A DNA stretch of 14,511 nt from Candidatus Latescibacterota bacterium (GCA_016209865.1 JACQVL010000341.1:1-14511), one strand, 5' to 3'; positions 1 to 14,108 are shown, counted from the stretch's first letter. Numbers and translations: made by a program. Notes: generated by a model not told the origin, from the letters alone.

Positions 1-383
1 GGTATCACGTCAACGCCCACATCCCGTCCGAGAAGTACCTCATCCCCACCGACCTGAAACTGACGCCCTTCAAGGGTCTCACCGTCGAGCCGGCGCTCTA
101 CCCCACGCCGATCCAGAAAGCGATGGAGTTCGTCGAGGGGAAGAAACTCGCCCTGTACGAGGGCAAGTTTGTGATCGGCCTGATCGCACGCGCCGGCAAA
201 GACCTGCCGGTCGGGCGGCAGACGCTCAAGGGCACGCTCCGGTACCAGGCGTGCAACGATCAGGTCTGCCTGCCCCCCGACGACATTCCCGTCGAGATCG
301 TGTTCGACGTGATCACGCCGGGACAGCCATCCCGGCCGGTGAACGCGAGCCTCTTCGCACAGCCGCCGTTTAAGAAGCAGTGA
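1..383 (+). CDS. DsbD alpha/DsbC-like periplasmic domain protein, C-terminal part (5' end outside window)
   Basis: The reading frame is open from base 3 to the TGA at 381-383. It contains an immunoglobulin-like beta-rich segment ending in a motif reading LRYQACNDQVCLPP, the two-cysteine signature of the DsbD N-terminal (alpha) domain, which passes reducing equivalents to periplasmic thiol proteins. The cysteines are separated by four residues; E. coli DsbD has five. The protein stops about 35 residues after this motif, with no membrane segments following, so this is not a full DsbD but a protein that ends with the domain, probably secreted or periplasmic. The partner electron donor is not visible. 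The stop codon is the first three bases of a TGACGAG heptad array. The domain assignment is fairly secure; the whole protein is unknown because its start is missing. Confidence 0.8.
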   Translation, partial: YHVNAHIPSEKYLIPTDLKLTPFKGLTVEPALYPTPIQKAMEFVEGKKLALYEGKFVIGLIARAGKDLPVGRQTLKGTLRYQACNDQVCLPPDDIPVEIVFDVITPGQPSRPVNASLFAQPPFKKQ

Positions 384-480
384 CGAGTGTTTAGTGACGA
401 GTGACGAGTACGATCTGGGGCAAAATTATCAAAGCTCCCATTTATGTTCATGCTTTTACTCGTCACTTGTCACTCGTCAC
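381..480. repeat. Two-armed heptad repeat element A (TGACGAG type)
   Basis: Left arm 381-410 reads in 7-base steps TGACGAG, TGTTTAG, TGACGAG, TGACGAG. Right arm 458-480 reads ACTCGTC, ACTTGTC, ACTCGTC, AC, the reverse complement of the left-arm unit. The centre (about 411-457) is unrelated and AT-rich. The element fills the space between two convergent genes and its first heptad provides the TGA stop of the upstream one. It could form a long hairpin, but neither side shows the U-tract of an intrinsic terminator. Confidence 0.85.
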
Positions 481-485
481 CGCCC

Positions 486-2126
486 TTAAAACCGCGACGC
501 GGTGAGGGTCACGTCCGCGCGCGCCCACGCCTTCTTGAACCGCTGCTCCACCGCTGCGGCCTCCTGGACGGCTTTTCGCGCACGCAAGCACTGAAGCAGG
601 CCGTAGAGCGACCAGCCGTTGTCCGGGTTCTGTTTCAAGTCCTCCCGGTAGACCGCCTCCGCTTCAGTCGCTCGTCCCGCCGCGAGCAACACCGCGCCCA
701 ACGACTGACGCACCGGGTAGTACCAGTCGGGCGGTTCGTTGTACCGGAGTCCATCCTGGAGATGGATGGCTTCCTTGAGCGCTGTGACCGCCTTGTCAAC
801 CTGACCTCGTTTGGCCGCCAGCTCGCCCGCCAGGGCGTTCGAGGCGATGCTGAGCAAGGTTGCTCCTGAATTATTCCCCACCACCTGGTCGGCCGGCATC
901 GCGACCGCGATCGCCTTGACGCTGTCCGCTTCAACCGCCGCCTCGTTCACCCGTCCGGTCGCGGTGAACGCCAGCCCGCGGGCGTAGCGCCAGATTGCCG
1001 TCGTGAACCGCAGATCCGCCGGAGGCGGCGGTTGCTTCAGCACCTCCTCCCACTTCCCGAATCGTACGAGGGCGAACAGCACCGTCGGGGGGACGAACTC
1101 AAGCGCCGGCATCTGACGGGCCATCTCCACCGGCAATTGCGCGACGACCTCACGGGCCATCTGGAGTGCCTCCGCGCTCCGTCCTTCCATGCTCAGCGCC
1201 GCCCATCGGAAATGGATGTTGTGGGGGTAGTACATCATCGGGTAGACGCCCTGGGGGGCCTGCTTGCTGATGTAGTCACGATCCACCGTGATGGCGCGTG
1301 CGTTCGCCTCCGCCGCGTCGGTATACCGCCCGACCCGCATGTAGATATGGGAAGGCATGTGGACGAGGTGTCCCGCTCCGGGCACTAACGTGGTCAGCCG
1401 GTCGGCGGCCGCCAGCCCTCGATCCGGACGGGGGGATCCTTCGATGGCATGAATGTAGTAGTGGTTCGCGCCGGGATGGTTGGGGTTGCGCTGTAAGACC
1501 GACTCCAACGTGGAGACGATGTCGAGTGTCCCCGGTTGCGGCTGTCCGTCGTTCGTCCACAGCGCCCAGGGGCGCAGGTTCATCATCGCTTCCGCGAACA
1601 GAGTCGTAGCGTCGAGGTCGTCGGGGTATTGCCGGGCGACCTCCCGCATCGCGTCCGCGTACGCCTGCTGCAGGGCGTTCCGGTCGGCATCCGGAGCGAT
1701 CGAATACCGCTTCGACAGCGCCTCGATGTACGCCCGCTCCGGCTTGCTCACCCGTGAGGAGAGGGCTAAGGCCTTCTGAACCGCGTCGTACGCCACGCGA
1801 TCCTGGGTCGGGTCATCTAAGTTGATGTTCGGGCCGAGGGCGAGCGCCATTCCCCAGTACGCCATCGCGCAGGTCGAGTCGAGATGTGCCGCTTCTTTGA
1901 ACGCACGGATTGCTTCCTCGTGGTTGAAGGCGTAGACGAGCCGAAGCCCCTGATCGAAGTACCGCTGAGCCGTCGGGGAAGCCGTCGTGACCGTATGATG
2001 GTACGTGCCCAGGTTGTCGAACAGCGGGACGGCGACGGATGAGGCTGCATGCTGGTGCGGTTGGGCCGCCGCCGGACGGGTGAAGAAGAGGAAAATCAGA
2101 CACAAGCAGAAAAGATGATAGACCAT
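486..2126 (-). CDS. Exported tetratricopeptide-repeat protein with conserved-looking His motifs
   Basis: A 546-residue protein. Residues 1-21 form a signal peptide (hydrophobic core LFCLCLIFLFF, then an AAA/Q cleavage site). TPR-like helices are seen at about 55-100 (YFDQGLRLVYAFNHEEAIRAF...), 230-285, 310-350, 385-470 and 480-530. The centre is rich in ordered histidines: NHPGANHYYIHAIE (217-229), GHLVHMPSHIYMRVGRY (252-268) and YYPHNIHFRW (299-308). TPR proteins usually hold protein partners together; the histidines could instead mark a metal or other ligand site, which is inference. The ATG at 2126 is preceded by AAGGGGGTG at a good ribosome-binding distance. It is convergent with the DsbD-like gene and downstream of the M20 gene on the same strand. 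I recognise the family as common in environmental genomes but know no assigned function. Confidence 0.85.
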   Translation of the reverse strand: MVYHLFCLCLIFLFFTRPAAAQPHQHAASSVAVPLFDNLGTYHHTVTTASPTAQRYFDQGLRLVYAFNHEEAIRAFKEAAHLDSTCAMAYWGMALALGPNINLDDPTQDRVAYDAVQKALALSSRVSKPERAYIEALSKRYSIAPDADRNALQQAYADAMREVARQYPDDLDATTLFAEAMMNLRPWALWTNDGQPQPGTLDIVSTLESVLQRNPNHPGANHYYIHAIEGSPRPDRGLAAADRLTTLVPGAGHLVHMPSHIYMRVGRYTDAAEANARAITVDRDYISKQAPQGVYPMMYYPHNIHFRWAALSMEGRSAEALQMAREVVAQLPVEMARQMPALEFVPPTVLFALVRFGKWEEVLKQPPPPADLRFTTAIWRYARGLAFTATGRVNEAAVEADSVKAIAVAMPADQVVGNNSGATLLSIASNALAGELAAKRGQVDKAVTALKEAIHLQDGLRYNEPPDWYYPVRQSLGAVLLAAGRATEAEAVYREDLKQNPDNGWSLYGLLQCLRARKAVQEAAAVEQRFKKAWARADVTLTASRF

Positions 2127-2169
2127 GGTACACCCCCTTCGCGCAGGTTTATCCCTTATTGGTTTTTAC

Positions 2170-2190
2170 TGACCACCGACCACCGACCAC
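2170..2190. repeat. Single-armed heptad array B (CGACCAC type)
   Basis: Three consecutive 7-base units, TGACCAC, CGACCAC and CGACCAC, fill 2170-2190, two bases before the stop codon of the M20 gene (its complement begins at 2193). No inverted partner arm is seen in the 43 bp before the TPR gene start, so this is either a decayed element or a one-armed form. It lies in the leader of the TPR gene. Confidence 0.75.
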
Positions 2191-2192
2191 CC

Positions 2193-3779
2193 CTACGTCG
2201 TCTTCCATTCCGCGTACGTGTACAGAATGTCCACGAACGATTTCTCCGCTTCGGCGATCCCGGCGACTCTGTCATTCCCATCGATGACGATGTACTCATC
2301 GACGCTGTGCGCCCGTGCGCCGTGACCCATTCCACCCCCGCAGGTCGGCAGGCTGAGGGGCGGTCGGGTATACAGATAAAACGGCGCACTGCCGCCCGTG
2401 TGCGGCCAGATCACCGGTCTGATGTTGTTCTTCTGGTAGACGTTCAGCACCGCCTGGACGACCGGCTGGGTCACGCTCGTTTTCGACCACTCGTACCCGG
2501 AAAGCTGTCGGATCTTGATGTCGGTAAACCCGTGCTTGTCTAAGTGCGCCCGGATGAGCGGGATGATGTCTTTCGCTTCCTGGTTGGGAACGAGCCGGAC
2601 GTCGATCTTGCACGTCGCCTTGTGCGGGAGGATCGTCTTCGTGCCCGGCCCGGTGTACCCCGCCCAGATGCCGTCGAGATTCAGCGTGGTCGAGTACAGG
2701 TACTTCTTGAGCAGGTCGATCCCCTCTGCGTTGTCGATGAACACGTCCACCGCGTTCGCTTTCCGCCAGTTCTCCACGTTGAACGTCTTGACCAGTTCGG
2801 CTAACAGGGCTTCATCCTCCTGGCTGGGCGGCGCGACTCTGTCGTAGAAATGCTCGATCATGATGGAGTTCCCATCCTCGGATGTCATCGAGGAGAGCGC
2901 CTTCAGGAGCCGCCAGACCGGGCTGTCCACGGCCGCCTTGAAGCTGCTGTGGATCTCCCGCTGCGTCGGGCCGCGTCCCCAGTCCGTCCCGGAGCACTCC
3001 AGCTCGAAGTAGACGATGCCCTTATTGCCGAGCGACATCGTCACCGACCCGTCCAGTGCCTGCGTCGGGTCCGGGTTGAGCACCGCGTTCGCCGTCTTCA
3101 GCCGGTCGGCATACTGCTCGATGATCTGGTGGAAATGCGGGCTGCCCAGCTCCTCCTCGCCTTCAGCCGTGAACATGATGTTGACCGGCAGCTTGCCCTC
3201 GACGGCGATGATCGACTCCAGGGCGTTCAGCCACATCCGATACGACCCCTTACTGTTGATCGCGCCCCGGGCCCGGAGGACGAGCGGGAACGGGTCCATC
3301 TTGACTAACTCCGCCGCGAACGGAGGCGTCGTCCACTCTTTCTCCTCGACCGGCTGGACGTCGTACATGCTGTAGTTGACGATCGTTTTCGCGCCCTTGA
3401 CCCCGCAATCGTAGTACGCCCAGATGCCGGGGTTGCCATCGGTCTTGACCATCTCGACTTCTTGACAGTCGAGGTCGCGGTAGTAGCCCGCCAGCATCTC
3501 CGCGCACCGTTCGATGCCGATGTGCTGGGCGCTCACGCTCGGCTGACGGAGGTATTCCTGCAGCCTGGCGATGTGCCGCTGTTTGTTCTCCTCGATATGC
3601 CTGTAGACCTTCTGGATGGCTTGCTGGGCTTTAGCAGACAGGGTGAACGGCTTCGCAGGTTTGGCCGGTTTCTGCGCCGCCGCGTCGTCGAACAGGCCGG
3701 TGAGTCCCGACCCGGCCAGCCCGACCCCCATCGCGGCTTTCCCGGTGAGTTCGAGAAATTCTTTCCGTGTCATCGACAT
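2193..3779 (-). CDS. M20-family metallohydrolase with variant metal site, exported
   Basis: A 528-residue protein when started at the ATG at 3779, which has AGGAGGG 11 bases upstream; the longer frame from 3827 runs through that site and a hairpin and is unlikely. The N-terminus (SMTRKEFLELTGKAAMGVG) resembles a Tat signal with RK in place of RR, followed by an alanine-rich cleavage region, so export is likely. The M20 fold is shown by YDVQP (139-143), RGAINSKG, EGEEELGS (206-213), an IHSS motif in the lid domain, and a final AHSVDEYI. M20 peptidases and deacetylases use a two-zinc site. Two usual ligand motifs are altered: the GHxD histidine is Met138 (SMYD), and the DDKG motif is NSKG. The catalytic Glu pair and terminal His remain. 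It may hydrolyse amide bonds with one metal or have lost activity. It could share a transcript with the upstream DUF1326 gene. Confidence 0.85.
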   Translation of the reverse strand: MSMTRKEFLELTGKAAMGVGLAGSGLTGLFDDAAAQKPAKPAKPFTLSAKAQQAIQKVYRHIEENKQRHIARLQEYLRQPSVSAQHIGIERCAEMLAGYYRDLDCQEVEMVKTDGNPGIWAYYDCGVKGAKTIVNYSMYDVQPVEEKEWTTPPFAAELVKMDPFPLVLRARGAINSKGSYRMWLNALESIIAVEGKLPVNIMFTAEGEEELGSPHFHQIIEQYADRLKTANAVLNPDPTQALDGSVTMSLGNKGIVYFELECSGTDWGRGPTQREIHSSFKAAVDSPVWRLLKALSSMTSEDGNSIMIEHFYDRVAPPSQEDEALLAELVKTFNVENWRKANAVDVFIDNAEGIDLLKKYLYSTTLNLDGIWAGYTGPGTKTILPHKATCKIDVRLVPNQEAKDIIPLIRAHLDKHGFTDIKIRQLSGYEWSKTSVTQPVVQAVLNVYQKNNIRPVIWPHTGGSAPFYLYTRPPLSLPTCGGGMGHGARAHSVDEYIVIDGNDRVAGIAEAEKSFVDILYTYAEWKTT

Positions 3780-3806
3780 AGTCTGGTCATCCCTCCTGAG
3801 ATACGA

Positions 3807-3839
3807 AGGGCGCTCCCAGCCTACCACTGGAAGCGCCCT
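3807..3839 (-). other. Stem-loop between the DUF1326 and M20 genes
   Basis: AGGGCGCTCCCAG (3807-3819) pairs with CTGGAAGCGCCCT (3827-3839) with one mismatch, leaving a 7-base loop: a strong GC-rich hairpin. Read on the minus strand it ends about 10 bases before the AGGAGGG of the M20 gene and is not followed by a U-run, so it looks less like a classical terminator than an RNA-processing, stability or attenuating structure between two co-oriented genes. A weak or Rho-assisted terminator cannot be excluded. Confidence 0.6.
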
Positions 3840-3905
3840 GTGTTTCGCGGGAGTGCCTTGCTCGAGTTCAGGTGCCTAACACTCCTCCCTCTGAAGAGAT
3901 CACTC

Positions 3906-4613
3906 TCACATGGTATCCTTCGAGGTGATGTCAAGGGTGATCATGAAGCCATTCGTGCCCTTAAACTCGTAGCGCTTATCCCCCGCCCGGTACGCCTCCA
4001 CCTCGTTCGGCATCAACACGAAGCCATCGTTCCGGGGGACACCCCAGTACTTGAGGTTCTTGATCACCGTCGGCTCACCGGTCATCGCCGACGGATTGTG
4101 CCGGAGCACCACTTCGGCGGTTTTTCCGCCATCGAGCCGAGCTTCCGCGCGATCCTTCGTGGCCTTCCATTCCATCACTGCATCTTTGGCTATCGTAAAC
4201 GAATTCCACTTCACCGGGTAGACGCGGCCCAGGATCGTGGCGATGGCATCCCGCTGCTCTTTCGTCACCGCGGAGTCGAACGTCAGCACCGCCCAATCCA
4301 TCTGCCCCTTGGAGAAGTCGCCGCCGAGGTCTCCGGCGACCCAGAATTTAGCCCCGTCGAGTTTGACGGTGCCGTACATTCCTTTATTGACCTGGAAGGC
4401 ATTGTTGAATCGGCAAAAGTGCTGACCTTCGTGGCTTGGTGCCGGTTCAGCGTTGAAATAGCACTGACAGAACATCGGACAGCTACACGCCTCGATGATC
4501 GTCGCGTTGAACGACCAGTCCGGTGTCGCGGAAGACTTGGCGCCCTGGGCTGCCACAGAACCCACAGCGATCAGCAGCAAACCGAGCACGATCAGCAACA
4601 CACGCGCACGCAT
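3906..4613 (-). CDS. DUF1326 domain protein, exported
   Basis: A 235-residue protein from the ATG at 4613, which has AAAGGAGG seven bases upstream; a frame extending to 4745 has no comparable site. Residues 1-22 are a signal peptide (MRARVLLIVLGLLLIAVG, cleavage after AQ). The mature part carries the DUF1326 hallmark near its start, EACSCPMFCQCYF, giving cysteines at 43, 45, 49 and 51 and another at 67 (HFCRF). The C-x-C-x3-C-x-C arrangement could bind a metal or form disulfides; the family has no established biochemical role that I know of. It lies upstream of the M20 gene on the same strand, about 130 bp away with a stem-loop between. A promoter on the minus strand is proposed at 4831-4858. 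Family assignment is fairly certain; function is unknown. Confidence 0.8.
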   Translation of the reverse strand: MRARVLLIVLGLLLIAVGSVAAQGAKSSATPDWSFNATIIEACSCPMFCQCYFNAEPAPSHEGQHFCRFNNAFQVNKGMYGTVKLDGAKFWVAGDLGGDFSKGQMDWAVLTFDSAVTKEQRDAIATILGRVYPVKWNSFTIAKDAVMEWKATKDRAEARLDGGKTAEVVLRHNPSAMTGEPTVIKNLKYWGVPRNDGFVLMPNEVEAYRAGDKRYEFKGTNGFMITLDITSKDTM

Positions 4614-4830
4614 AGGGATACCTCCTTTATCTATGGAAACACTTGTAGAAAGACCGGAAGGCATCGATCGCAGGGAAGCCCTGACGAACGAGCTAACCCC
4701 CGGTCGAGGAATGACGCCACGAGCTCGAGCATGGGCACCGCCCACGAAGGGGTAGAGTTGAATATAAGACTAATGAATAGCGGACAAGGTCATTCGTGAC
4801 ATCGAGAACAGGAAGGATATGTCTGTATGC

Positions 4831-4858
4831 AGTATACCACCTGTAATTCATTTGTCAA
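4831..4858 (-). promoter_or_regulatory. Sigma70-type promoter for the DUF1326 gene
   Basis: On the minus strand TTGACA (4858-4853) and TATACT (4836-4831) are separated by 16 bp: a perfect -35 and a -10 with five of six consensus bases, in an AT-rich setting. The start site would be about 210 bases before the ATG at 4613, giving a long leader. The -10 hexamer lies within the left heptad arm. Confidence 0.6.
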
Positions 4859-4885
4859 TAAAATTTTTCAATCACGGGGGAGGTT

Positions 4886-4905
4886 TATCAGGGCGGCCCC
4901 TGATA
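4886..4905. other. Perfect 8-bp stem with CGGC loop
   Basis: TATCAGGG, CGGC, CCCTGATA. It lies inside the centre of the CATACTG-type element, between the two divergent promoters, with no U-run on either side. It could be a protein-binding palindrome or a structural feature of the repeat element; no family is recognised. Confidence 0.5.
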
Positions 4906-4946
4906 GAGATAGACTGGGTCAATTGATCACGCTTCTCAAATTTTGC

Positions 4947-4975
4947 TTGCCAGTTGGTTCCTGTTGCTCTATGCT
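4947..4975 (+). promoter_or_regulatory. Possible promoter for the M14 peptidase/fbp pair
   Basis: TTGCCA (4947-4952) and TATGCT (4970-4975) with a 17-bp spacer match five and four of six consensus bases. It would start transcription about 100 bases before the peptidase ATG, reading through the dRS3-like repeat. The -10 is at the edge of the right heptad arm. This is the best candidate in the spacer but is only moderate. Confidence 0.35.
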
Positions 4976-5002
4976 ACATACTGCATACTGAGCGTAAAAG
5001 GT

Positions 5003-5072
5003 GTCATTCCCGCGCAAGCGGGAATCCATATGGCAGTTCAAAGACCTGGATGCCCACCTTCGCGGGCATGAC
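5003..5072. repeat. dRS3-like double inverted repeat (GTCATTCCCGC...GCGGGAAT family)
   Basis: Two 26-base units in opposite orientation, 5003-5028 and 5047-5072, are separated by 18 bases. The first contains ATTCCCGCGCAAGCGGGAAT, a perfect 8-bp stem closed by a GCAA tetraloop, matching the ATTCCC-N8-GGGAAT form of the Neisseria dRS3 repeat, which is widespread in other bacteria. The second is a diverged copy (ATGCCC...GGGCAT). Translated, it gives the familiar spurious sequence CHSRASGNP...MPTFAGMT, so coding should not be assigned here. Confidence 0.85.
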
Positions 5073-5079
5073 AAGTGGA

Positions 5080-6450
5080 ATGTTACTGCATCGAACAGAT
5101 ATCAACCGGGCTTTTGAGGCTGTGCGTCAGGTCACTCAGGATATCGAATACGTCGGCGCCGAGGCCATTGAACCGGCGTGTTGGGCGTTGCATGACACAG
5201 CGCCTGGGATAGAGGTGACCGGGATCGGCCGCTCGCGGGAAGACCATCCCATCCTGGCGTTGACCGTCGGCCATGGGGACGTAACGATCACCGTCAAGGG
5301 CAATGCGCACGCGGACGAACCGGCCGGGACCGCCACCTGTCTGCTCATCGCCCGGTTGCTGGCCGAGCATCCGGCCTGGCGGCTGCTGGCCGACCGCGCC
5401 CGATTCTGCCTGATCCCGACGGCCAACCCGGATGGCCTCGCCCGGAACCAGGGGTGGCTCGTCCCGCCGTTCGACCTGCGCCGGTACTTTCTGCACGTCT
5501 ACCGCGACCTCCCCCGCGACGACGTGGAATTCGGCTATCCCTCCGGAGATGACCGTGCTGGCAGGCCGGAGAACCTGGCATGCGCCCGGTTCTTCGAATC
5601 GTGCTCGCCCATCGCCGCGCACCTGAGTCTGCACAGCATGGTCTTCACCGGGGGTGCCTGGTTTCTGATCGCGGCGGCGGACATTGCCCCGTTCGCGCCA
5701 GCGCTGGCATTCTTGACTGATGCCTGCGACTGGGAAGGCCTGCCGCTCCATGACGAAGACCGGCGCGGGCAGCGCGGGTTTGCCCGGCTGCGACCGGGCT
5801 TCCACACGATCCCCACGGTCGAGGGGATGCGGGCGTTCTACGAACGGTCGGGGGATGCGGCGCTCGTCCGCCAGTTCCGGCTCAACTCGATGCAATATGC
5901 CCTCTCCCGTTGCGGCGCGCGGTTTGCCGCTGTCTCCGAGCTCCCGCTCGCATACGACCCGGTCCTGGCGGATATGACACCAGCCGACCAGACGCGCGTG
6001 GAGATCGAGCGACAGCGCATCACCGAGCAGTCCGAGTCGCTGGATGAGCTGGACGCGATCGTCGATCGGCTGGCTGGCGTGTCGTTGAGTGATGAAGGGC
6101 AGTCCTGGCTGGCGTATTACCGTGGGTACCTGTCCTACCGGCGGTCAGGACTGCGGTCGTTGGCCGATGACCTCGACCGGTACGCGGACAGACCGGCGCT
6201 CGGGCGGGACCTGCACGATGTGGCGCTCGCCCGTCTGCGCGACCGGGTGTTCAACGCCGCGGCCGGAGTCAGGCTGCTCCACAGCAGTCAGGATGACCAC
6301 CTGCGCCGGCGGCAGACGACGTACAGACAGGAGTTCGATGCACGGTTCGATGAGATGATGTCCCGGTTTCACTTCCGTCCCCTCCCGCTCAGAGACCAGG
6401 TCCGACTCCAGGCCGCGACCATCCTGGCGGGTTTCTTGGCGGGACATTAG
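5080..6450 (+). CDS. M14-family zinc carboxypeptidase-like protein
   Basis: A 456-residue protein if begun at the ATG at 5080. The frame is open from 4954, but the first 40 codons translate the dRS3-like repeat, so they were dropped; an ATG at 5068 inside the repeat is an alternative and neither start has a strong Shine-Dalgarno. The M14 zinc site is recognisable: HADE (H77, E80; HxxE motif), NPDG (116-119), SLHS (H185) as third ligand, and TVEG (E248) as a possible catalytic glutamate. M14 enzymes remove C-terminal residues or cut unusual peptides such as cell-wall stem peptides. No signal peptide is seen, so it is probably cytoplasmic. The C-terminal 150 residues are helical and charged, of unknown role. 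Only 15 bp separate it from fbp, so the two are probably co-transcribed. Substrate is unknown. Confidence 0.8.
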   Translation: MLLHRTDINRAFEAVRQVTQDIEYVGAEAIEPACWALHDTAPGIEVTGIGRSREDHPILALTVGHGDVTITVKGNAHADEPAGTATCLLIARLLAEHPAWRLLADRARFCLIPTANPDGLARNQGWLVPPFDLRRYFLHVYRDLPRDDVEFGYPSGDDRAGRPENLACARFFESCSPIAAHLSLHSMVFTGGAWFLIAAADIAPFAPALAFLTDACDWEGLPLHDEDRRGQRGFARLRPGFHTIPTVEGMRAFYERSGDAALVRQFRLNSMQYALSRCGARFAAVSELPLAYDPVLADMTPADQTRVEIERQRITEQSESLDELDAIVDRLAGVSLSDEGQSWLAYYRGYLSYRRSGLRSLADDLDRYADRPALGRDLHDVALARLRDRVFNAAAGVRLLHSSQDDHLRRRQTTYRQEFDARFDEMMSRFHFRPLPLRDQVRLQAATILAGFLAGH

Positions 6451-6465
6451 CGCGGAGGATATCTT

Positions 6466-7467: not shown

Positions 7468-7480
7468 AAAGGGGACAGCA

Positions 7481-7500
7481 TAGTGACGAGTGACGAGTAC
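7481..7500. repeat. Single-armed heptad array F (TGACGAG type)
   Basis: TAGTGACGAGTGACGAGTAC, two TGACGAG units plus flanks, is identical over 20 bases to 392-411 in element A. No inverted arm is found before the next gene, whose ATG lies 14 bases further on. It fills most of the short fbp-oxidoreductase spacer. Confidence 0.8.
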
Positions 7501-7514
7501 AAGCGAGCAAAGAC

Positions 7515-8708
7515 ATGGTGAAGACAGCGGATATCGTCATCATCGGGGGCGGGTGTATGGGGGCGAGCTTAGCGTTTTCCCTCGCCCGGCGCGGGGTGAA
7601 ACACGTCGTCCTCCTCGAACGGAAGCGTCTGGCCTCCGGGCCGACGGGCAAATCCCTGGCCATCCTCCGCCAGCACTATGGGGTCGAGTCGATGGTCTTC
7701 ACGTCGCAACGGTCGCTGGAAATTTTCTCTCACTTCGACGACGCCGTCGGCGGGGACACCGGGTTCGTCCGGACCGGCTACGTCAAGTGGGTGGCGGCGC
7801 ATGACCGGGCGGCGCTGGAGGCGAACGTCGCCATGCAGCGCCGAATAGGGGCGAACGTACTGCTCCTCGATGCCGCCGACCTGGCCGGCATCTGCCCCGG
7901 CGTGCAGGTCGACGACGTGGCGGCGGCGGCATACCATCCCGACTCTGGGTACGCCGACCCGATCGCCACGACTCTCGCGTTCGCCCGGCGGGCGCGCGAC
8001 TTCGGGGCGACGATCGTTGAAGGGGTGACCGTCACCGGCCTCCGGCTGTCTGCGGGACGCATCGCCGCGGTCGAGACCTCGGAGGGGGTGATCGCCACTC
8101 CGGTCGTCGTCAACTCGGCCGGGGCGTGGGGCGCACGCGTCGCCCGGATGGTCGGGGTCGAACTGCCCATCCAGACGATCCGCCCGCAGATCTGCCTGTT
8201 CAAACGCCCGCCCGCCCTCGACGGGATGCACCCGATCTACTCCGATTCGGTCACCGGGATGTTCTACCGTCCCGAGCAGGCCCGGCTGAGCTTCGTCGGC
8301 ATCGATGTCTCCGAGGGCGAGATCGCGAAGCCCGCCGACCCGGACGCCTACGACGAATCGGTCGACTCCGGTCTCATCGCCCGGCTCCGGCCGCCGATGG
8401 AGGCCCGGCTGCCCGCGATGCGGTGGGGCGTCTCCCGCGGTGGCTACGCGGCCATCTACGACATGACTCCCGACGAGCAGCCGATCATCGGACACATCCC
8501 GGAGGTCGAGGGGTTCTCCTGCAACCTCGGCTGGAGCGGTCACGGGTTCAAACACTGCCCGGCGATCGGCCTGTTGATGGCGGAACTGATCACCGAAGGC
8601 CGGACGACGGGTTTCGATATCACCGCGTTCCGCGCGAGCCGGTTCAAAGAAGGCCAGCCGATCACAGAGAGAAAGTATCAGGGTGGATCGAAGGAGTGGA
8701 TGAGATAA
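7515..8708 (+). CDS. FAD-dependent oxidoreductase, DAO family, sarcosine oxidase beta-like
   Basis: A 397-residue flavoprotein. The N-terminal ADIVIIGGGCMGASLAFSLA (residues 5-24) is a Rossmann GxGxxG FAD-binding motif followed by an acidic adenosine-ribose position (LLERKRL). The segment GKSLAILRQHYGVESMV and the C-terminal DEQPIIGHIPEVEGF...GWSGHGFKHCPAIG are typical of the sarcosine oxidase beta/DadA group, which oxidises amines or N-methyl amino acids with FAD. No alpha, gamma or delta subunit genes of a four-subunit sarcosine oxidase are nearby, so a stand-alone amine oxidase or dehydrogenase is likely. No Shine-Dalgarno is evident before the ATG; a heptad array occupies that position. 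Downstream a Gfo/Idh enzyme and a glycine-oxidase-like gene suggest a shared catabolic theme. The exact substrate is unknown. Confidence 0.85.
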   Translation: MVKTADIVIIGGGCMGASLAFSLARRGVKHVVLLERKRLASGPTGKSLAILRQHYGVESMVFTSQRSLEIFSHFDDAVGGDTGFVRTGYVKWVAAHDRAALEANVAMQRRIGANVLLLDAADLAGICPGVQVDDVAAAAYHPDSGYADPIATTLAFARRARDFGATIVEGVTVTGLRLSAGRIAAVETSEGVIATPVVVNSAGAWGARVARMVGVELPIQTIRPQICLFKRPPALDGMHPIYSDSVTGMFYRPEQARLSFVGIDVSEGEIAKPADPDAYDESVDSGLIARLRPPMEARLPAMRWGVSRGGYAAIYDMTPDEQPIIGHIPEVEGFSCNLGWSGHGFKHCPAIGLLMAELITEGRTTGFDITAFRASRFKEGQPITERKYQGGSKEWMR

Positions 8709-8713
8709 AACAC

Positions 8714-8830
8714 GGGGTACGGGATTCGGGGTTCGGGAAAAGCAACAGATGATTTGTCTTACCCATACCCCGTACCCCGAATCCCGGGTTTTCTTCCCGA
8801 ATCCCTAACCCCGAACCCCTAACCCCGAGA
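8714..8830. repeat. Two-armed heptad repeat element C (GGGRTTC type)
   Basis: The left arm reads GGGGTAC, GGGATTC, GGGGTTC, GGGAAAA (8714-8741). After a short AT-rich centre the right side has two blocks of reverse-complement heptads: CCCCGTA, CCCCGAA, TCCCGGG (8768-8788), then CCCGAAT, CCCTAAC, CCCGAAC, CCCTAAC, CCCGAGA (8796-8830), split by TTTTCTT. The element begins 5 bases after a stop codon and its last heptad overlaps the probable ribosome-binding site of the next gene (GAGAGGA, 8826-8832). Confidence 0.85.
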
Positions 8831-8840
8831 GGATTTTGCC

Positions 8841-9923
8841 ATGCACGACCCAGACCTCGACCTGGACTATCGCCCCAAGCTGGGGGCAAAACGAGATTAC
8901 GGCATCGGCATCGTCGGGGCGGGCGCGATCGTGAACGCGGCCCATCTGCCCGCCTACCGGAAGGCCGGGTTCACGGTGGCTGGCATCACCGACCTGTCGC
9001 GGGAGAAGGCGAGCGAGACCGCCAGACGGTTCGAGGTGCCGACGGTCTATGAGAGTGTGGACGCGCTGCTCGCCGACCCGGCGGTCGAGATCGTCGATAT
9101 CGCGGTGCCCCCGTGGAACCAGTTGGACCTCGTCCGGAAGGCGACGGCGGCCCGGAAGCCTCTCCTCTGCCAGAAGCCGCTGTCGGACACGTACGCGGGC
9201 GCGCAGGAGATCGTCCGGCTCGCCCAGGCGGCGGGAGTGAAGCTCGCCGTCAACCAGCAGATGCGCTGGGATCAGACCATCCGGTCGGCGCGCACCCTCG
9301 TGACGCGCGGCTGGCTGGGGACGCCGACGGCGGCGACGATCGACGTCAACATCTTGACTGAATGGAGCGTCTGGCCGTGGCTGCTCACCGTGGACGGCCT
9401 GGATTTGATGTACCATAGCATCCATTACTTCGACAGTCTTCGATCCCTGTTCGGCCAGCCCGACCGCGTCTGGTCGTCCTGTTCCGCCTACCCCGGCCAG
9501 GCCCCGAAGGGAGAGACCCGGACGATCACGGTGTTCGAGTACCCCGCCGGCCTCCGCGCGCTCGTCGCCGTCAACCACAACAACTGGACGGACGACCGGT
9601 ACGCTACCCTCCGCATCGACGGGACGGACGGGCTTGCCAAGGGGACGTTCGGCCTCCTGTACAATTACCCGTACGGCCGGCCGGACACCTTTGAATTTAC
9701 CTCAAAGAAGGCGTATCCGCACCTGTCGTTCAGTCATCGGTTCGAGGAGATGTGGCTTCCCGACGCGTTCATCGGGCCGATCGGCGACCTGATGCGGGCG
9801 ATAGAGGAAGGCCGGGAACCGGAGACGAGCGGAGCGGATAACCTGAAGACCCTCCAACTCGTCCATGCCGCCTACCGGTCGATCGCGGAGAAACGGGCGG
9901 TCGCGCCCGACGAGATCGTATGA
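8841..9923 (+). CDS. Gfo/Idh/MocA family NAD(P)-dependent oxidoreductase
   Basis: A 360-residue protein. The Rossmann motif GIGIVGAGAIVNAAHLPAY (21-39) binds NAD(P); CQKPLS (110-115) is the family's EKP motif with Gln replacing Glu and the catalytic Lys kept (K112); NQQMRWD (138-144) and LMYHSIHYFD around residue 195 match the substrate-binding half, including the usual catalytic His. These enzymes interconvert hydroxyl and keto groups of sugars, inositols and similar polyols. The ATG follows GAGAGGA by 8 bases; the first 20 residues are an acidic/basic leader before the Rossmann fold. Its last codons overlap the next gene (ATGA at 9920-9923), indicating translational coupling with the glycine-oxidase-like protein. 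Substrate cannot be read from sequence. Confidence 0.88.
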   Translation: MHDPDLDLDYRPKLGAKRDYGIGIVGAGAIVNAAHLPAYRKAGFTVAGITDLSREKASETARRFEVPTVYESVDALLADPAVEIVDIAVPPWNQLDLVRKATAARKPLLCQKPLSDTYAGAQEIVRLAQAAGVKLAVNQQMRWDQTIRSARTLVTRGWLGTPTAATIDVNILTEWSVWPWLLTVDGLDLMYHSIHYFDSLRSLFGQPDRVWSSCSAYPGQAPKGETRTITVFEYPAGLRALVAVNHNNWTDDRYATLRIDGTDGLAKGTFGLLYNYPYGRPDTFEFTSKKAYPHLSFSHRFEEMWLPDAFIGPIGDLMRAIEEGREPETSGADNLKTLQLVHAAYRSIAEKRAVAPDEIV

Positions 9924-11074
9924 CCCCGGACGTCCTCATCATCGGCGCGGGCGTGATCGGACTGTCGATCGCTCACGAATTAGCCGGGCGCGGGCTGCGG
10001 GTCACGGTGCTCGATGCAGGCGAGGCCGGGAAAGGCGCGTCGTGGGCATCGGCGGGCGTCCTGGCCCCGCAGGGCGCGCGTCCGAGCGCGGGTCCGTACC
10101 TCGACCTGTCCCTGTGGAGTCGGGAGGTGTACGGGACGTTCGCCGAACGACTGAAGGAGGAGAGCGGGGTCGACATCGAATACCGGACGGACGGAGGCCT
10201 CCACATCGCCCTCGATGAGGCGGAGCAGGCGGAATTGGATGACCGGTACCGCCACCAGCAGGCCCTCGGCCTGCCGGTCGAACGGCTGACGGCCGAGGAG
10301 GTGCTCGCCCTCGAACCGTCGCTCTCCCCGGACGTCCGTGGCGGGCTGTTCTTCCGGGGGATGCACCAGATCGACAACCGCAAGCTCATGCGGGCGCTCA
10401 TCGTCGCCGCGGTCCGGCGCGGGGCGCAGGTCGTCTGCGGCACGCCCGCGACCGGACTCACCGTCCGCAAGGCGCAGCTCATCGGGGTTGAGTCGTCCAG
10501 TACGACATGGAAGGCGGGGACTATCATCAACGCGGCGGGCTGCTGGTCGCGGCTGATCAGCGGCGTCGATCCAGCGCTTCAGCCTCCGGTGAAGCCGGTC
10601 CGCGGGCAGATGCTTGCCCTCGACGTGGGGACGACCGCTCCTGTTCGGCGCGTCATCCACGGCCTGGGCGCGTACCTCGTCCCCCGGCACGACGGCCGGC
10701 TGCTCGTCGGCGCGACCGTCGAGAAGGTGGGGTTCGACGTGCGGGTGACGGCGGGCGGTATGGCGACCCTGCTCAACGCGGCGCTCCGGATGGCTCCAGG
10801 CTTGGACGGCGCGCCGCTCTCGGAGGTCTGGGCCGGCCTCCGGCCGATGTCGAAAGATGGCAAACCGATCCTCGGTCCGACCACCCTCCCCGGCCTCGTC
10901 ATGGCGACCGGCCATTACCGTCAGGGCATTCTCCTCGCCCCGATCACCGCGCGGCTGATCGCGGACTCGGTCGTCACCGGGAACGTCTCGCCGGAGCTGG
11001 AGCCGTTTTTGCTGGAGCGGTTCGGACGGAATAGACACACTGGTACCCCCAATCTCGATCCACCTCTCCCATAA
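9920..11074 (+). CDS. thiO: Glycine oxidase ThiO-like FAD oxidoreductase
   Basis: A 384-residue flavoprotein of the DAO family. DVLIIGAGVIGLSIAHELAG (4-23) is the FAD Rossmann motif. GASWASAGVLAPQ is close to the ThiO pattern, and GLRPMSKDGKPILGP with GHYRQGILLAPITA at the C-terminus is highly characteristic of glycine oxidase ThiO. ThiO oxidises glycine to the imine used in thiamine thiazole synthesis; related enzymes oxidise sarcosine or D-amino acids. No thiS, thiG or other thiamine genes are seen here, and the gene is translationally coupled to a Gfo/Idh enzyme, so a catabolic amino-acid oxidase role is possible. The frame is intact. A new promoter begins six bases after the stop. Confidence 0.85.
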   Translation: MTPDVLIIGAGVIGLSIAHELAGRGLRVTVLDAGEAGKGASWASAGVLAPQGARPSAGPYLDLSLWSREVYGTFAERLKEESGVDIEYRTDGGLHIALDEAEQAELDDRYRHQQALGLPVERLTAEEVLALEPSLSPDVRGGLFFRGMHQIDNRKLMRALIVAAVRRGAQVVCGTPATGLTVRKAQLIGVESSSTTWKAGTIINAAGCWSRLISGVDPALQPPVKPVRGQMLALDVGTTAPVRRVIHGLGAYLVPRHDGRLLVGATVEKVGFDVRVTAGGMATLLNAALRMAPGLDGAPLSEVWAGLRPMSKDGKPILGPTTLPGLVMATGHYRQGILLAPITARLIADSVVTGNVSPELEPFLLERFGRNRHTGTPNLDPPLP

Positions 11075-11079
11075 AAATC

Positions 11080-11108
11080 TTGACAATAAACCTCTTGAGT
11101 GCTATAAT
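11080..11108 (+). promoter_or_regulatory. Consensus sigma70-type promoter of the regulator-cysK unit
   Basis: TTGACA (11080-11085), 17-bp spacer, TATAAT (11103-11108): both hexamers and the spacing are perfect consensus, in a locally AT-rich patch between GC-rich genes. The start site should fall near 11115. Such a strong promoter normally requires repression, which the overlapping palindrome can provide. Confidence 0.88.
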
Positions 11109-11131
11109 GTTGACTAAAATGGTCAACATTA
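11105..11131 (+). promoter_or_regulatory. Operator palindrome, IscR type-1-like, for the Rrf2 regulator
   Basis: Two perfect 10-base arms, TAATGTTGAC and GTCAACATTA, flank a 7-base centre (TAAAATG). It covers the 3' part of the -10 box through the start site, so binding would block initiation. The core TTGACTAAAATgGTCAA resembles the E. coli IscR type-1 consensus (YYGACTRWWWYAGTCRR), supporting recognition by the Rrf2 protein encoded immediately downstream and hence autoregulation. Type and regulator are inferred; the palindrome itself is plain. Confidence 0.8.
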
Positions 11132-11156
11132 ACGCGCGTCATGAGGGAAATGTTCC

Positions 11157-11603
11157 ATGCGAGTGTCAGCGAAAGCGGAGTACGCGTGTCGGGCGATGCT
11201 GGAATTGTCCCGGTGTTACAAGGTCTTAGAAGTCATTCAGATTCATGATATTGCGACCCGGCAGGATATCCCGAAGAAGTATCTGGTGCAGATCCTGCTG
11301 CAGTTGCAGCGTGCGGGCCTCGTCAAGAGCAAGCGGGGGGCGGCCGGCGGGTATACCCTGGCGAAGCCGCCGTCGGAGATCAGCCTGGGGGATGTCCTGC
11401 GGACGACGGACGGGCCGTTAGTGGCGATCGAGAGCCTGGAGGAACACGGGGCCGGGAACGGGCGGCGTCCGCTCGAGGCGCACTCGGCGTTGCGCGAGGT
11501 CTGGCAGGATGTCCAGGAGCAGGTCTCGCGGGTGGTGGACAGTATCTCATTCGAGGACATCTGCCGGCGGGCGGACAAATCCACGATGATGTACTATATC
11601 TGA
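11157..11603 (+). CDS. Rrf2-family regulator, CymR-like (no Fe-S cysteines)
   Basis: A 148-residue DNA-binding protein. The N-terminal winged helix (about 1-70) shows the Rrf2 signature: [17 protein letters not shown], a recognition region [21 protein letters not shown], and the wing [13 protein letters not shown]. IscR, NsrR and RsrR hold an iron-sulfur cluster with cysteines around residues 90-105; here that stretch (about 90-115) has none, and the only cysteines are at 11, 20 and 136. This matches CymR, the cysteine-metabolism repressor of Firmicutes, whose C-terminus (MFYI) also resembles the MYYI end here. CymR works in complex with CysK, and cysK is the next gene, 13 bases away. GAGGG precedes the ATG by nine bases. 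An autoregulated repressor sensing cysteine supply is likely; direct evidence is lacking. Confidence 0.88.
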
Positions 11604-11616
11604 TACAGGAGACTGC

Positions 11617-12567
11617 ATGGCGCGACGGATTTATGAGAGTGTCGTGGACCTGATCGGGGACACTCCGCTCGTCCGGCTGAACCGGATCGTGCCGGAGGGC
11701 GCCGCGACGGTGCTGGCCAAGGTCGAATCCGCCAACCCGGCCGGGAGCGTGAAGGATCGGATCGGGCTGTCGATGATTCTGGACGCCGAACAGCGGGGCG
11801 TGCTGAAGCCGGGAGGGACGATCGTCGAACCGACGAGCGGGAATACCGGCCTCGGTCTGAGCATGGTGGCCGCCGTGCGCGGGTACAAGGTCATCCTGAC
11901 GATGCCCGACAACATGAGCGCGGAGCGGCGCAGTTTGCTTGCTTCGTACGGCGCGGAGATCATCCTGACGCCGGGGCTGGAAGGGATGGCCGGGGCTGTT
12001 CGGAAAGCCGAAGAGATCGTGTCCTCCAACCCCGGGTATGTGATGCCTCAGCAGTTCAAGAACCCGGCCAACCCGGCCATCCATCGGACGACGACGGCGG
12101 AGGAGATCTGGGAGGCGACGGGAGGGAAGGTGGATGCGTTCGTCGCCGGGGTGGGGACCGGGGGAACGATCACGGGGGTTGGCCAGGTGCTCAAGGAACG
12201 GAACCCGGCGGTCCGGGTGGTGGCGGTCGAGCCGACGTCGTCCCCGGTGCTGTCCGGCGGGCGGATCGAGAGCCTCGTCCACGGGATTCAGGGCATCGGG
12301 GCCGGGTTCATCCCGGACATCCTGGATCGGACGATCCTCGACGAGATCCTGACCGTCACGGATGAAGAGGCCTATTTTACGGCGAAGCGGCTGGCCACCG
12401 ATGAGGGGCTGCTCGTCGGGATTTCCGGAGGCGCGAACGTGTTCGCCAGCCTCAAGGTGGCACAAGAATTAGGAACTGGTCGCGCCGTCGTGACCATCCT
12501 CCCGGATACCGGGGAGCGCTACTTGAGCCTCCGGGAATACTACGAGGGCCAGTCGGTCAAGCACTGA
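11617..12567 (+). CDS. cysK: Cysteine synthase (O-acetylserine sulfhydrylase), CysK type
   Basis: A 316-residue PLP enzyme, close to the usual length, that makes cysteine from O-acetylserine and sulfide in the cytoplasm. PLP lysine is K46 in NPAGSVKDR; the substrate loop TSGNTG (73-78), the phosphate-binding GTGGTITG (180-187), [11 protein letters not shown] and PDTGERYLS are all present. GIQGIGAG follows CysK rather than the CysO-using CysM of Mycobacterium, so free sulfide may be its normal donor. AGGAG precedes the ATG. The gene lies 13 bp after the CymR-like regulator and 56 bp before a CysO-like carrier, most likely in one transcript under the 11080 promoter. No cysE is visible in the window. 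Confidence 0.95.
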
Positions 12568-12623
12568 GTCGTTCTTCATTTCGTATCTTATTTGTCATTT
12601 CCGTTATAGAAAGGGAGCCTCGA

Positions 12624-12929
12624 ATGCCAGTGACCGTCCGCATTCCGACGCCGTTGAGAAAGTTGACCGCCAACCAGTCCGACGTTCAGGTCGAGGGGGA
12701 GACGATCGCGTCGGTCTTGGGGAACTTAGACGCCGCCTACCCGGGCCTCCGGGAGCGGCTCTGCGATGAATCCGGGAACGTCCGCCGGTTCATCAACATC
12801 TACGTGAACGAGGAGGACATCCGGTTCCTCGACGGGACGGCCACCCGGGTGAAGGACGGGGATCGCGTGTCCATCATCCCGGCCATCGCGGGCGGGGCGA
12901 CGACAACAATTTTAGATTTTGGATTTTAG
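12624..12929 (+). CDS. CysO-like MoaD/ThiS-family sulfur carrier with C-terminal extension
   Basis: A 101-residue ubiquitin-fold protein. RIPTPLRKLT, RRFINIYVNEEDIRFLDG (54-71) and GDRVSIIPAIAGG (79-91) closely match mycobacterial CysO, which carries sulfur as a thiocarboxylate on its terminal diglycine for cysteine synthesis; its position after cysK supports this over MoaD or ThiS roles. Mature carriers must end in GG. Here residues 92-101 (ATTTILDFGF) follow, and codons 96 to the stop are exactly three heptads of element D, suggesting that repeat DNA replaced the original end. A JAMM/Mec-type protease could trim it, but no such gene or activating E1-like enzyme is in the window. AAAGGGAG precedes the ATG by a suitable distance. 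Confidence 0.87.
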   Translation: MPVTVRIPTPLRKLTANQSDVQVEGETIASVLGNLDAAYPGLRERLCDESGNVRRFINIYVNEEDIRFLDGTATRVKDGDRVSIIPAIAGGATTTILDFGF

Positions 12930-13038
12930 ATTGTGGATTAGAGAGAAAGAGCAGGAAGAACAGTGTGACTGTCTCGTCTCGCAGTTCATCGCTTTAATCG
13001 CCCTTAATCCAAAATCCAAAATCTAAAATCCAAAATGG
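12909..13038. repeat. Two-armed heptad repeat element D (ATTTTRG type)
   Basis: The left arm reads ATTTTAG, ATTTTGG, ATTTTAG, ATTGTGG, ATTAGAG (12909-12943). The right arm reads TTAATCC, AAAATCC, AAAATCT, AAAATCC, AAAATGG (13004-13038), its reverse complement. The 60-base centre is purine-rich then pyrimidine-rich and not repetitive. The left arm encodes the last codons and stop of the CysO-like gene; the right arm ends within ten bases of the homoserine kinase ATG. Its AT-richness contrasts with the GC-rich genes on both sides. Confidence 0.88.
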
Positions 13039-13047
13039 ATGCTCTCC

Positions 13048-13956
13048 ATGCCGACAGTAAGCGTCAGAGTGCCCGCCACGACGGGGAATGTGGGGTCGGG
13101 GTTCGATTGCCTCGGCATGGCGCTCGAGCTGTACAACACCGTGGACGTCAGCGAGGACGGCGACGGCCTCACCGTTGAGGTCGTCGGAGAGGGGGCTCAG
13201 ACTGTCCCACGGGACGCGACCAACCTGTGTGTCCGCGCCGCCCAGACGGTGTTCGACCGGGCGGGCGTCAGGCCGGCGGGCCTCCGGTTCGTCCTCCATC
13301 ATGCGATCCCGGTCTCTCGCGGACTGGGCAGCAGCGGGGTGGGGATCGTGGCGGGGGCGGTCGCGGCCAACGAACTGGCCGGTTGTCCTCTCGACACGGC
13401 CGGGCTGCTTCGCGTCTGCACCGACCTCGAAGGCCATCCGGACAACGTCGTCCCGTCCCTGCTCGGCGGGCTGTCGATCAGTGGGGAGCGGGACGGACAG
13501 ATTGTCTACCGGACGTTTGACATCCCGCGCAACCTGATGGGGGTGGTGGCGGTCCCGGACTTTACCCTGGACACGGCCGTCGCGCGGCGTGCGTTGCCCG
13601 ACCGCGTCCCGATGCATGACGCGGTCTTCAACCTCTGCAGCGTCGGGCTGCTGGTCAGCGGGCTGCTCAGCGGGGATTACAGCCTGATCCGGGCGGGGAT
13701 GGACGACCGGCTCCACCAGCCGTACCGCCAGCATCTCATCCCAGGCCTCCCGGACGTCATCGCGGCCGCGCTCGACGCGGGCGCGCATGGAGCCGCACTG
13801 AGCGGGGCGGGGCCGACGGTCATCGCGCTGGCCAGCCACTCGCAACCGCAGATCGGCGCGGCCATGATTGACGCGTTCAGGCGGCACGGGATCACCAGTC
13901 GCTCTCTGATCCTCCACGCCGATAACGAGGGAACGCAGGTGATGCGACGTGAGTAA
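13048..13956 (+). CDS. thrB: Homoserine kinase (GHMP family)
   Basis: A 302-residue protein from the ATG at 13048; a second ATG three codons earlier (13039) directly abuts the heptad array. Only a partial GGATG precedes 13048, and there is no clear Shine-Dalgarno for either. The enzyme phosphorylates homoserine with ATP, the step before threonine synthase. VRVPATTGNVGSGFDCLGMA (7-26) matches the ThrB N-terminus, PVSRGLGSSGVGI (88-100) is the GHMP ATP-binding loop, EGHPDNVVPSLLGG follows the family, and GAALSGAGPTVIAL is the third GHMP motif. The length is typical and the frame intact. No other threonine genes are in the window. Heptad elements lie immediately before and after it. Confidence 0.92.
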   Translation: MPTVSVRVPATTGNVGSGFDCLGMALELYNTVDVSEDGDGLTVEVVGEGAQTVPRDATNLCVRAAQTVFDRAGVRPAGLRFVLHHAIPVSRGLGSSGVGIVAGAVAANELAGCPLDTAGLLRVCTDLEGHPDNVVPSLLGGLSISGERDGQIVYRTFDIPRNLMGVVAVPDFTLDTAVARRALPDRVPMHDAVFNLCSVGLLVSGLLSGDYSLIRAGMDDRLHQPYRQHLIPGLPDVIAAALDAGAHGAALSGAGPTVIALASHSQPQIGAAMIDAFRRHGITSRSLILHADNEGTQVMRRE

Positions 13957-13968
13957 GGGCGAAAAGAC

Positions 13969-14108
13969 GGGGTGCGGGATTCGGGGTACGGGGTTCGGGA
14001 GACAATAAAGACTGTAGGTCGTACGCAGAAGGTGGTGGAATGGTCTGTGCTGCCTTCTGTTTTTTTCTGCCTTTCCCGAACCCCGAATCCCGAACCCCGA
14101 ACCCCGAG
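13969..14108. repeat. Two-armed heptad repeat element E (GGGRTTC type)
   Basis: The left arm reads GGGGTGC, GGGATTC, GGGGTAC, GGGGTTC, GGGAGAC (13969-14003). The right arm reads CCCGAAC, CCCGAAT, CCCGAAC, CCCGAAC, CCCGAG (14075-14108). The centre of about 70 bases carries a smaller GCAGAAGG/CCTTCTG inverted pair and a T-run. It is the same family as element C but with a different centre, and occupies nearly all of the space between thrB and the CoA transferase gene. Confidence 0.88.
14026..14066 (+). terminator. Possible intrinsic terminator after thrB, nested in element E
   Basis: CAGAAGG (14026-14032) pairs with CCTTCTG (14053-14059) across a 20-base loop, followed directly by seven T (14060-14066). 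The stem is short and the loop long, so it would be weak alone, although the surrounding heptad arms could strengthen the fold. The same bases may be a decayed TTCTGCC-type heptad pair. Confidence 0.4.

Follow-up and report, generated by a model that had tools for sequence, protein, structure and literature searches.

How did several unrelated seven-nucleotide words come to stand in the same inverted, two-armed layout between the genes of one bacterium? This question is raised by a 14,511-nucleotide stretch of DNA from a Candidatus Latescibacterota bacterium (GCA_016209865.1, JACQVL010000341.1:1-14511; hereafter the window), which is part of a 3.75-Mb, 356-contig assembly that is 83% complete (G000). 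A preliminary description of the window reported tandem heptads in seven gene spacers, five of them two-armed, with the right arm the reverse complement of the left. We found period-7 arrays in six of these spacers, comprising four two-armed elements (A, D, E and F) and two single arms, and the right arms match the reverse-complemented left arms at 84-96%. Self-match runs of at least 10 exact positions in the window fall at lags 7, 14 and 21 (13 runs), with almost none at other lags between 2 and 29. The remaining spacer, region C, holds only one 14-nt inverted repeat with copies 142 nt apart, for which 961 kb of the genome gave no clear family. Its left part overlaps an 11/12 match to a sigma-70-like promoter (TTGACA-16-TATACT) in a spacer between divergent genes, and from its sequence we prefer to read it as a divergent promoter region, so that the two-armed elements of the window number four and not five. 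These elements have two ends of 3-5 heptads with the G-richer strand reading inward, usually with the same heptad in both arms, and interiors that are not shared. On balance, we cautiously favour the interpretation that they are discrete miniature two-ended insertion elements in ordinary gene spacers.

The heptad arrays are real and genome-wide. A 961-kb sample of this genome contained 342 period-7 arrays (35.6 per 100 kb), and when a detector covering periods 4-12 was run on 313 kb, period 7 yielded 131 arrays compared to 3 in a second-order Markov shuffle, with 1-19 arrays at each of the other periods. The sequence AGTGACGAGTGACG occurred 96 times in the 961 kb and its reversed control not once, and TGACGAGTGACGAG, with at most one mismatch, occurred 764 times in the whole assembly compared to 5 occurrences of its reversed control. 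The arrays fall into at least 10 unit families (including AGTGACG, ATTTTGG, AAGGACG, GGTGGTC, GGGGTTC, GGGGTCA, TGGGCAG, GATTGCG, AAATGGG and AAGAGTG), in agreement with the earlier claim that different units obey one layout with a period of 7. An assembly artefact was rejected, as contig ends carry 4 arrays where 3.0 are expected and arrays also occur in cyanobacterial plasmids and in a genome assembled as one contig.

To place the elements in an evolutionary context, we compared the window with 15 genomes of the same order, judging synteny as far as the sampled stretches reach. The operon Rrf2-cysK-ThiS-thrB-CaiB is syntenic in these relatives, with thrB 63-71% identical. At the site of element E, the distance from the aligned protein end of ThiS to thrB is 142 nt here, compared to 12 nt in G011 and 6 nt in G001, and at the site of element F thrB and CaiB are separated by 164 nt here, compared to 10-13 nt in seven relatives. 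No heptads were present at either site in any of the 15 relatives, the longer spacers having been checked by eye. Insertion without net loss is thus shown at E and F, where whole elements are present or absent at orthologous sites, a feature by which miniature inverted-repeat transposable elements (MITEs) are recognized. For the elements in general it is strongly supported; the spacer that remains outside two-armed elements has a median of 23 nt between co-directional genes, compared to 34.5 nt in element-free spacers, and measures 19 versus 29.5 nt between convergent genes (3 cases only) and 290 versus 324 nt between divergent genes (4 cases only). The preliminary description had named two outcomes that would speak against it, a genome-wide unit spacing without a peak at 7 and syntenic spacers without presence/absence variation; given the observed peak and the comparison at E and F, neither occurred. 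The left arm of element E gives the ThiS-family open reading frame (ORF) a new stop and a tail after the diglycine. In genus g3 relatives (L307-L317), the counterpart of this ORF by cysK (window 12624-12929) has a Gly-rich tail of variable length, and presumably a protease would be needed to expose the GG, in a CysO/Mec+-like manner.

Arms from six families have a common anatomy. On the G-richer strand, this consists of an A-rich lead (for example AAAAGC or AAAATC; weak in the ATTTTGG family), 3-5 heptads, the first 2-3 nt of a further unit, and an A-rich run. Four heptads is the commonest number in the best-sampled families, and the array length of n x 7 plus a remainder of 2-3 nt, which is clear in the large families, matches the form of a telomerase-like or DRT10 product. 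The fraction of consensus units in four-unit arms, from the outer to the inner unit, is.79/.31/.60/.77 for AGTGACG,.85/.27/.54/.88 for ATTTTGG and.77/.23/.50/.82 for AAGGACG, the second unit being the most variable position in all three. The second-unit variant ATTTTAG also prevails in cyanobacterial plasmids and in family f27, but not in G291 (where arms are mostly perfect), G044 or G055. Units along one arm vary independently of each other, and copying of specific whole-arm haplotypes was rejected since haplotype counts are roughly those that independent units predict. Across 38 centres, T content climbs to 84% at the final sampled position before the right arm and is mirrored by A enrichment after the left arm, so the T-rich stretch first noticed in the window is general. 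The elements are non-coding, ~70-230 nt long, and form strong hairpins (z -3.2 to -8.1). Their centres, previously described as non-repetitive, are indeed mostly unique, but other dispersed palindromes often lie inside them. Tracts of G suited to a G-quadruplex are present in GGGGTTC and GGGGTCA units and absent from AGTGACG, ATTTTGG and AAGGACG, which make up the majority of arms.

The arms also follow strict rules of pairing. Among 82 nearest neighbours less than 300 nt apart, 60 were convergent and of the same family, 13 were convergent and of different families, and none was divergent within a family. When inverted pairs were scored without regard to the unit, the G-rich strand was on the left in 64/64 pairs of this genome, in 5/5, 4/4 and 1/1 pairs of the distant genomes G055, G291 and G324, and in 29 pairs versus 6 of opposite polarity in environmental contigs with the search families excluded. 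Within an element the arms have a common unit but differ in its variants: identical arms were found in 0/18 four-unit pairs, and the arms of an element resemble each other less than arms taken from different elements do. From the lack of identity we conclude that a right arm was not recently copied from its left arm, so the shared palindrome-generating mechanism that had been suggested for the window agrees with many units under one layout but not in this respect. The lower similarity within elements likewise indicates that no compensation preserves the stem, and with no enrichment of arrays at contig ends, loss of perfect repeats during assembly is an unlikely cause of the non-identical arms. 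Most arms (266/315) lie outside gene calls, which were made with a home-made caller. Their outer end has a median distance of 5 nt to a stop codon or of 25 nt to a start codon, their inner end is ~100 nt from the other gene, and they occur in convergent, co-directional and divergent spacers alike.

Table. Coordinates of the heptad elements, single arms and region C in the window.
Feature	Position	Strand	Remarks
Element A	379-480		
Element A, left arm	379-409	+	AGTGACG family; the upstream DsbD-N-like ORF stops at its first TGA
Element A, right arm	458-480	-	Faces the 3' end of a reverse-strand TPR gene (486-2126)
Single arm	2171-2191	-	GGTGGTC family, 3 exact units; faces the M20 peptidase stop codon
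Region C	4818-4992		Rejected as a heptad element; divergent promoter region (better reading) with 14-nt inverted repeat
Single left arm	7482-7498	+	AGTGACG family; 15 nt past the FBPase stop codon
Element D	8712-8828		Two right arms
Element D, left arm	8712-8738	+	GGGGTTC family
Element D, first right arm	8762-8786	-	
Element D, second right arm	8795-8828	-	Gfo/Idh/MocA start codon 12 nt further on
Element E	12909-13036		
Element E, left arm	12909-12939	+	ATTTTGG family; gives the ThiS-family ORF its stop (ORF ends 12929)
Element E, centre	12940-13005		Non-repetitive
Element E, right arm	13006-13036	-	Adjoins the thrB start
Element F	13968-14107		
Element F, left arm	13968-13999	+	GGGGTTC family; 3' of the thrB stop
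Element F, centre	14000-14074		T-rich ahead of the right arm
Element F, right arm	14075-14107	-	CaiB-like ORF 10 nt on

Dispersed repeats of other kinds occur in and around these spacers. The palindrome GTGTCATTCCCGCGCAAGCGGGAATCCAT, which we take to resemble dRS3, lies at window 5001-5029 in the spacer after region C and recurs in both orientations within element centres of different families (e.g. L039:2539-2701 and L054:8300-8405). A second repeat, around GACCCTTCGCTGCGCTCAGGGTGACA, is common (84% over 83 nt) to the centres of L066:4490-4625 and L033:9126-9336, two elements that differ in their arms. At window 11080-11135, immediately upstream of the Rrf2 gene, a perfect sigma-70 consensus (TTGACA-17-TATAAT, extended TG) is followed by the palindrome TGTTGACTAAAATGGTCAACAT, which by its sequence and position is likely an autoregulatory operator.

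Outside this genome, ATTTTRG arrays were found in 18/384 sampled genomes from ~15 families and TGACNAG arrays in 8 of the sampled genomes; only this genome and G206 contained both. Within the order, arrays were present in G000, G011 and G013, and none were found in eight genus g3 genomes (172 kb sampled). With the search families excluded, 10 unit classes were common to this genome and environmental contigs, compared to 2.3 expected by uniform chance. The exact 31-nt ATTTTGG arm, its variant second unit included, is present in plasmids of Sphaerospermopsis and Dolichospermum (Nostocales), in keeping with the cyanobacterial heptads to which the preliminary description compared the window. Some loci filed among viral contigs (L237, L242, L252 and others) contain 20-27 many-word heptad arrays per 8-15 kb, which is denser than in this genome; these array-dense contigs are probably bacterial. 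A set of phage-like contigs (L253, L254, L266, L284, L290 and relatives) has in common a control region in which an AGTGACC array lies ~200 nt from CCATACGGAATTCGG repeats, and we rejected these arrays as two-armed elements because they belong to a conserved phage control region.

Heptad repeats are known from several other bacteria. Those of cyanobacteria (Calothrix, Nostocales), which we take to be the repeats called STRR-type, are likewise tandem heptads and include the exact 31-nt arm of the plasmids, whereas the host here is non-cyanobacterial and GC-rich. Rehm et al. 2015 (PMC4692102) described GGGAATC heptamers in Xanthomonas and GGGGA(C/T)T in Nostoc, linked them to G-quadruplexes, and reported 70 and 75 convergent pairs in two Xanthomonas genomes, noting also that sister species carry prominent repeats at loci that differ. 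The arrays described here resemble them in consisting of about four 7-nt units, in being intergenic and convergently paired, and in having the 5' end of the G-rich strand near the neighbouring gene. They differ in that one genome holds many unit families, most of them unable to form G-quadruplexes, and go beyond them in that insertion at heptad-free sites, common borders and family-matched pairing are shown; the two-armed elements also far outnumber the few reported for Nostoc PCC 7120 (PMC4692102). The TAACTGA repeats of Beggiatoaceae (MacGregor 2015, PMC4679880) are similarly intergenic direct heptads of scattered phylogeny, but consist of one unit that in most cases closely precedes a start codon, with a single indirect repeat and no two-armed element described. 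Repetitive extragenic palindromic doublets forming hairpins (REPINs; PMC3116915) are, like our elements, inverted doublets with a variable spacer that are intergenic and hairpin-forming, but each class has one conserved 16-mer and a RAYT, whereas we found neither and the ends are heptad arrays of at least 10 families. The interior that MITEs share among many copies is also lacking here, where interiors share only separate dispersed palindromes. DRT10 (PMC12632851), which makes cDNA for phage defence, uses an A-B-A' template with an A of 2-4 nt that yields tandem repeats of any word, 9 nt long in one system. The n x 7 plus 2-3 nt form of our arms fits such a template, and the DRT10 mechanism is formally a precedent for tandem repeats of any word that end in a short remainder; a difference is that this genome gave no RVT_1 match.

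We also searched for machinery that could account for the elements. The Y1_Tnp domain (PF01797, RAYT) had no match in this genome (83% complete) or in G013 (97% complete), both of which bear heptads, and RVT_1 (PF00078) had none in this genome, G055 or the complete genome G259. The co-occurring transposase or reverse transcriptase anticipated in the preliminary description was thus not found in these genomes, and we rejected both enzymes as resident machinery in the genome of the window. Gene-bearing autonomous copies were rejected as well, as convergent arms 300-4000 nt apart around genes showed no orientation excess. Loss of mismatch repair is contradicted by MutS1 matches in 27/27 genomes, and loss of SbcD, which would allow palindromes, by the presence of SbcD here and in both further genera of the order that were sampled and bear heptads. 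SbcD scored above the cut-off in 3/3 heptad-bearing genera (G000, G011 and G013) and in 0/8 heptad-free genomes (one genus, g3), an association that fails as a general rule in distant bearers.

If the elements are miniature insertion elements, we envisage a machinery that would add heptads to both ends of broken or incoming DNA through a realignment step, in which a 2-3-nt microhomology (A) and a 4-5-nt stretch (B) would set the 7-nt step and give arrays of n x 7 plus 2-3 nt from any word. Once inserted, the elements would be tolerated filler that drifts by point mutation, MITE- or REPIN-like in being non-autonomous and hairpin-forming, with the layout and not the sequence kept across families. 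We favour this interpretation because the E and F sites measure 6-13 nt in several relatives and residual spacers are normal; because ends are fixed, polarity is uniform, pairing is convergent within families and the anatomy is common to six of them; and because units vary independently along an arm and the same ATTTTGG arm occurs in Nostocales plasmids. Several observations weigh against it. Neither of the enzymes looked for (Y1_Tnp and RVT_1) was found; target-site duplication is undetectable (longest shared flank word 3.63 versus 3.41 shuffled), which may reflect its absence or the age of the elements; and no two elements share a whole interior, unlike copies of one mobile element. In addition, many arms are single, the n x 7 plus 3 rule is blurred in pooled environmental contigs, the spacer argument beyond E and F is statistical, the relatives are related only at the level of the order, and the gene calls come from our own caller.

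An origin in place, in which replication slippage in steps of 7 nt extends arrays within spacers already there and template switching produces their inverted partner with no mobile element, would fit the independent variation of units and the undetected target-site duplication. In most genomes, moreover, long simple repeats are most often heptanucleotides, and a 7-nt polymerase footprint has been proposed (Mrazek et al. 2007, as related in PMC4679880). We nevertheless consider such an origin unlikely, as the E and F spacers of several relatives are too short to hold an element, residual spacers are of normal length, MutS is present, arms within an element are no more alike than arms between elements, and slippage leaves unexplained the 64/64 polarity, the common A-rich borders and the four units in every large family. 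We give somewhat less credence to the view that the elements are REPIN- or MITE-like, with ordinary terminal inverted repeats, and depend for movement on one or several transposases that act in trans and read the heptad arms; the inverted doublets with variable spacer, intergenic placement, strong hairpins and whole insertions fit this proposal, but at least 10 unrelated end sequences would require equally many recognitions, interiors are unshared, no target-site duplication was detected, Y1_Tnp is without a match in this genome and G013, and almost no heptad arrays adjoin the Y1 genes that were read. That the arms are selected as G-quadruplex or terminator-like structures at gene ends appears very improbable to us. 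The same placement near stop codons, four-unit preference and G-quadruplex formation were reported for GGGAATC and GGGGAYT (PMC4692102), and the A/T borders could form a bidirectional terminator. However, AGTGACG, ATTTTGG and AAGGACG keep the four-unit and polarity rules without G-tracts, so that a G-quadruplex explanation is insufficient; a terminator scan found none at the arms, its 8-nt loop limit being one that would miss arm terminators; arms lie in all three spacer types; and variants in the two arms do not compensate. Least probable in our estimation is an origin of the arms as scars left in the chromosome by a telomerase-like addition of repeats, in which a repeat-adding polymerase with an exchangeable A-B-A' template would cap both 3' ends of broken or incoming DNA with G-rich heptads, the capped ends then being joined head to head. 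If so, this would explain why the G-rich strand always reads inward, why both arms repeat one word, why array lengths follow n x 7 plus 2-3 nt and why the unit sequence is free, and the enzyme would lie outside RVT_1, have been lost, or be supplied by mobile DNA.

For a single word in each of Xanthomonas and Nostoc, heptamers had already been described together with their preference for four units, their position and their pairing in convergent orientation. New are the same rules over at least 10 words in one genome, including words unable to form quadruplexes, together with the common borders, the profile of unit variation, family-matched pairs with non-identical arms, and whole insertions at heptad-free sites. 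Earlier explanations of bacterial heptamers were tied to one sequence each (quadruplex, translational regulator). As at least 10 unrelated words stand under a single layout in one genome, we conclude that the process makes or keeps a layout rather than a word. With the evidence for whole insertions, what was a simple-repeat curiosity becomes the question of an insertion process scattered over many phyla, for which polarity, four units, a short remainder and A-rich borders provide testable rules.

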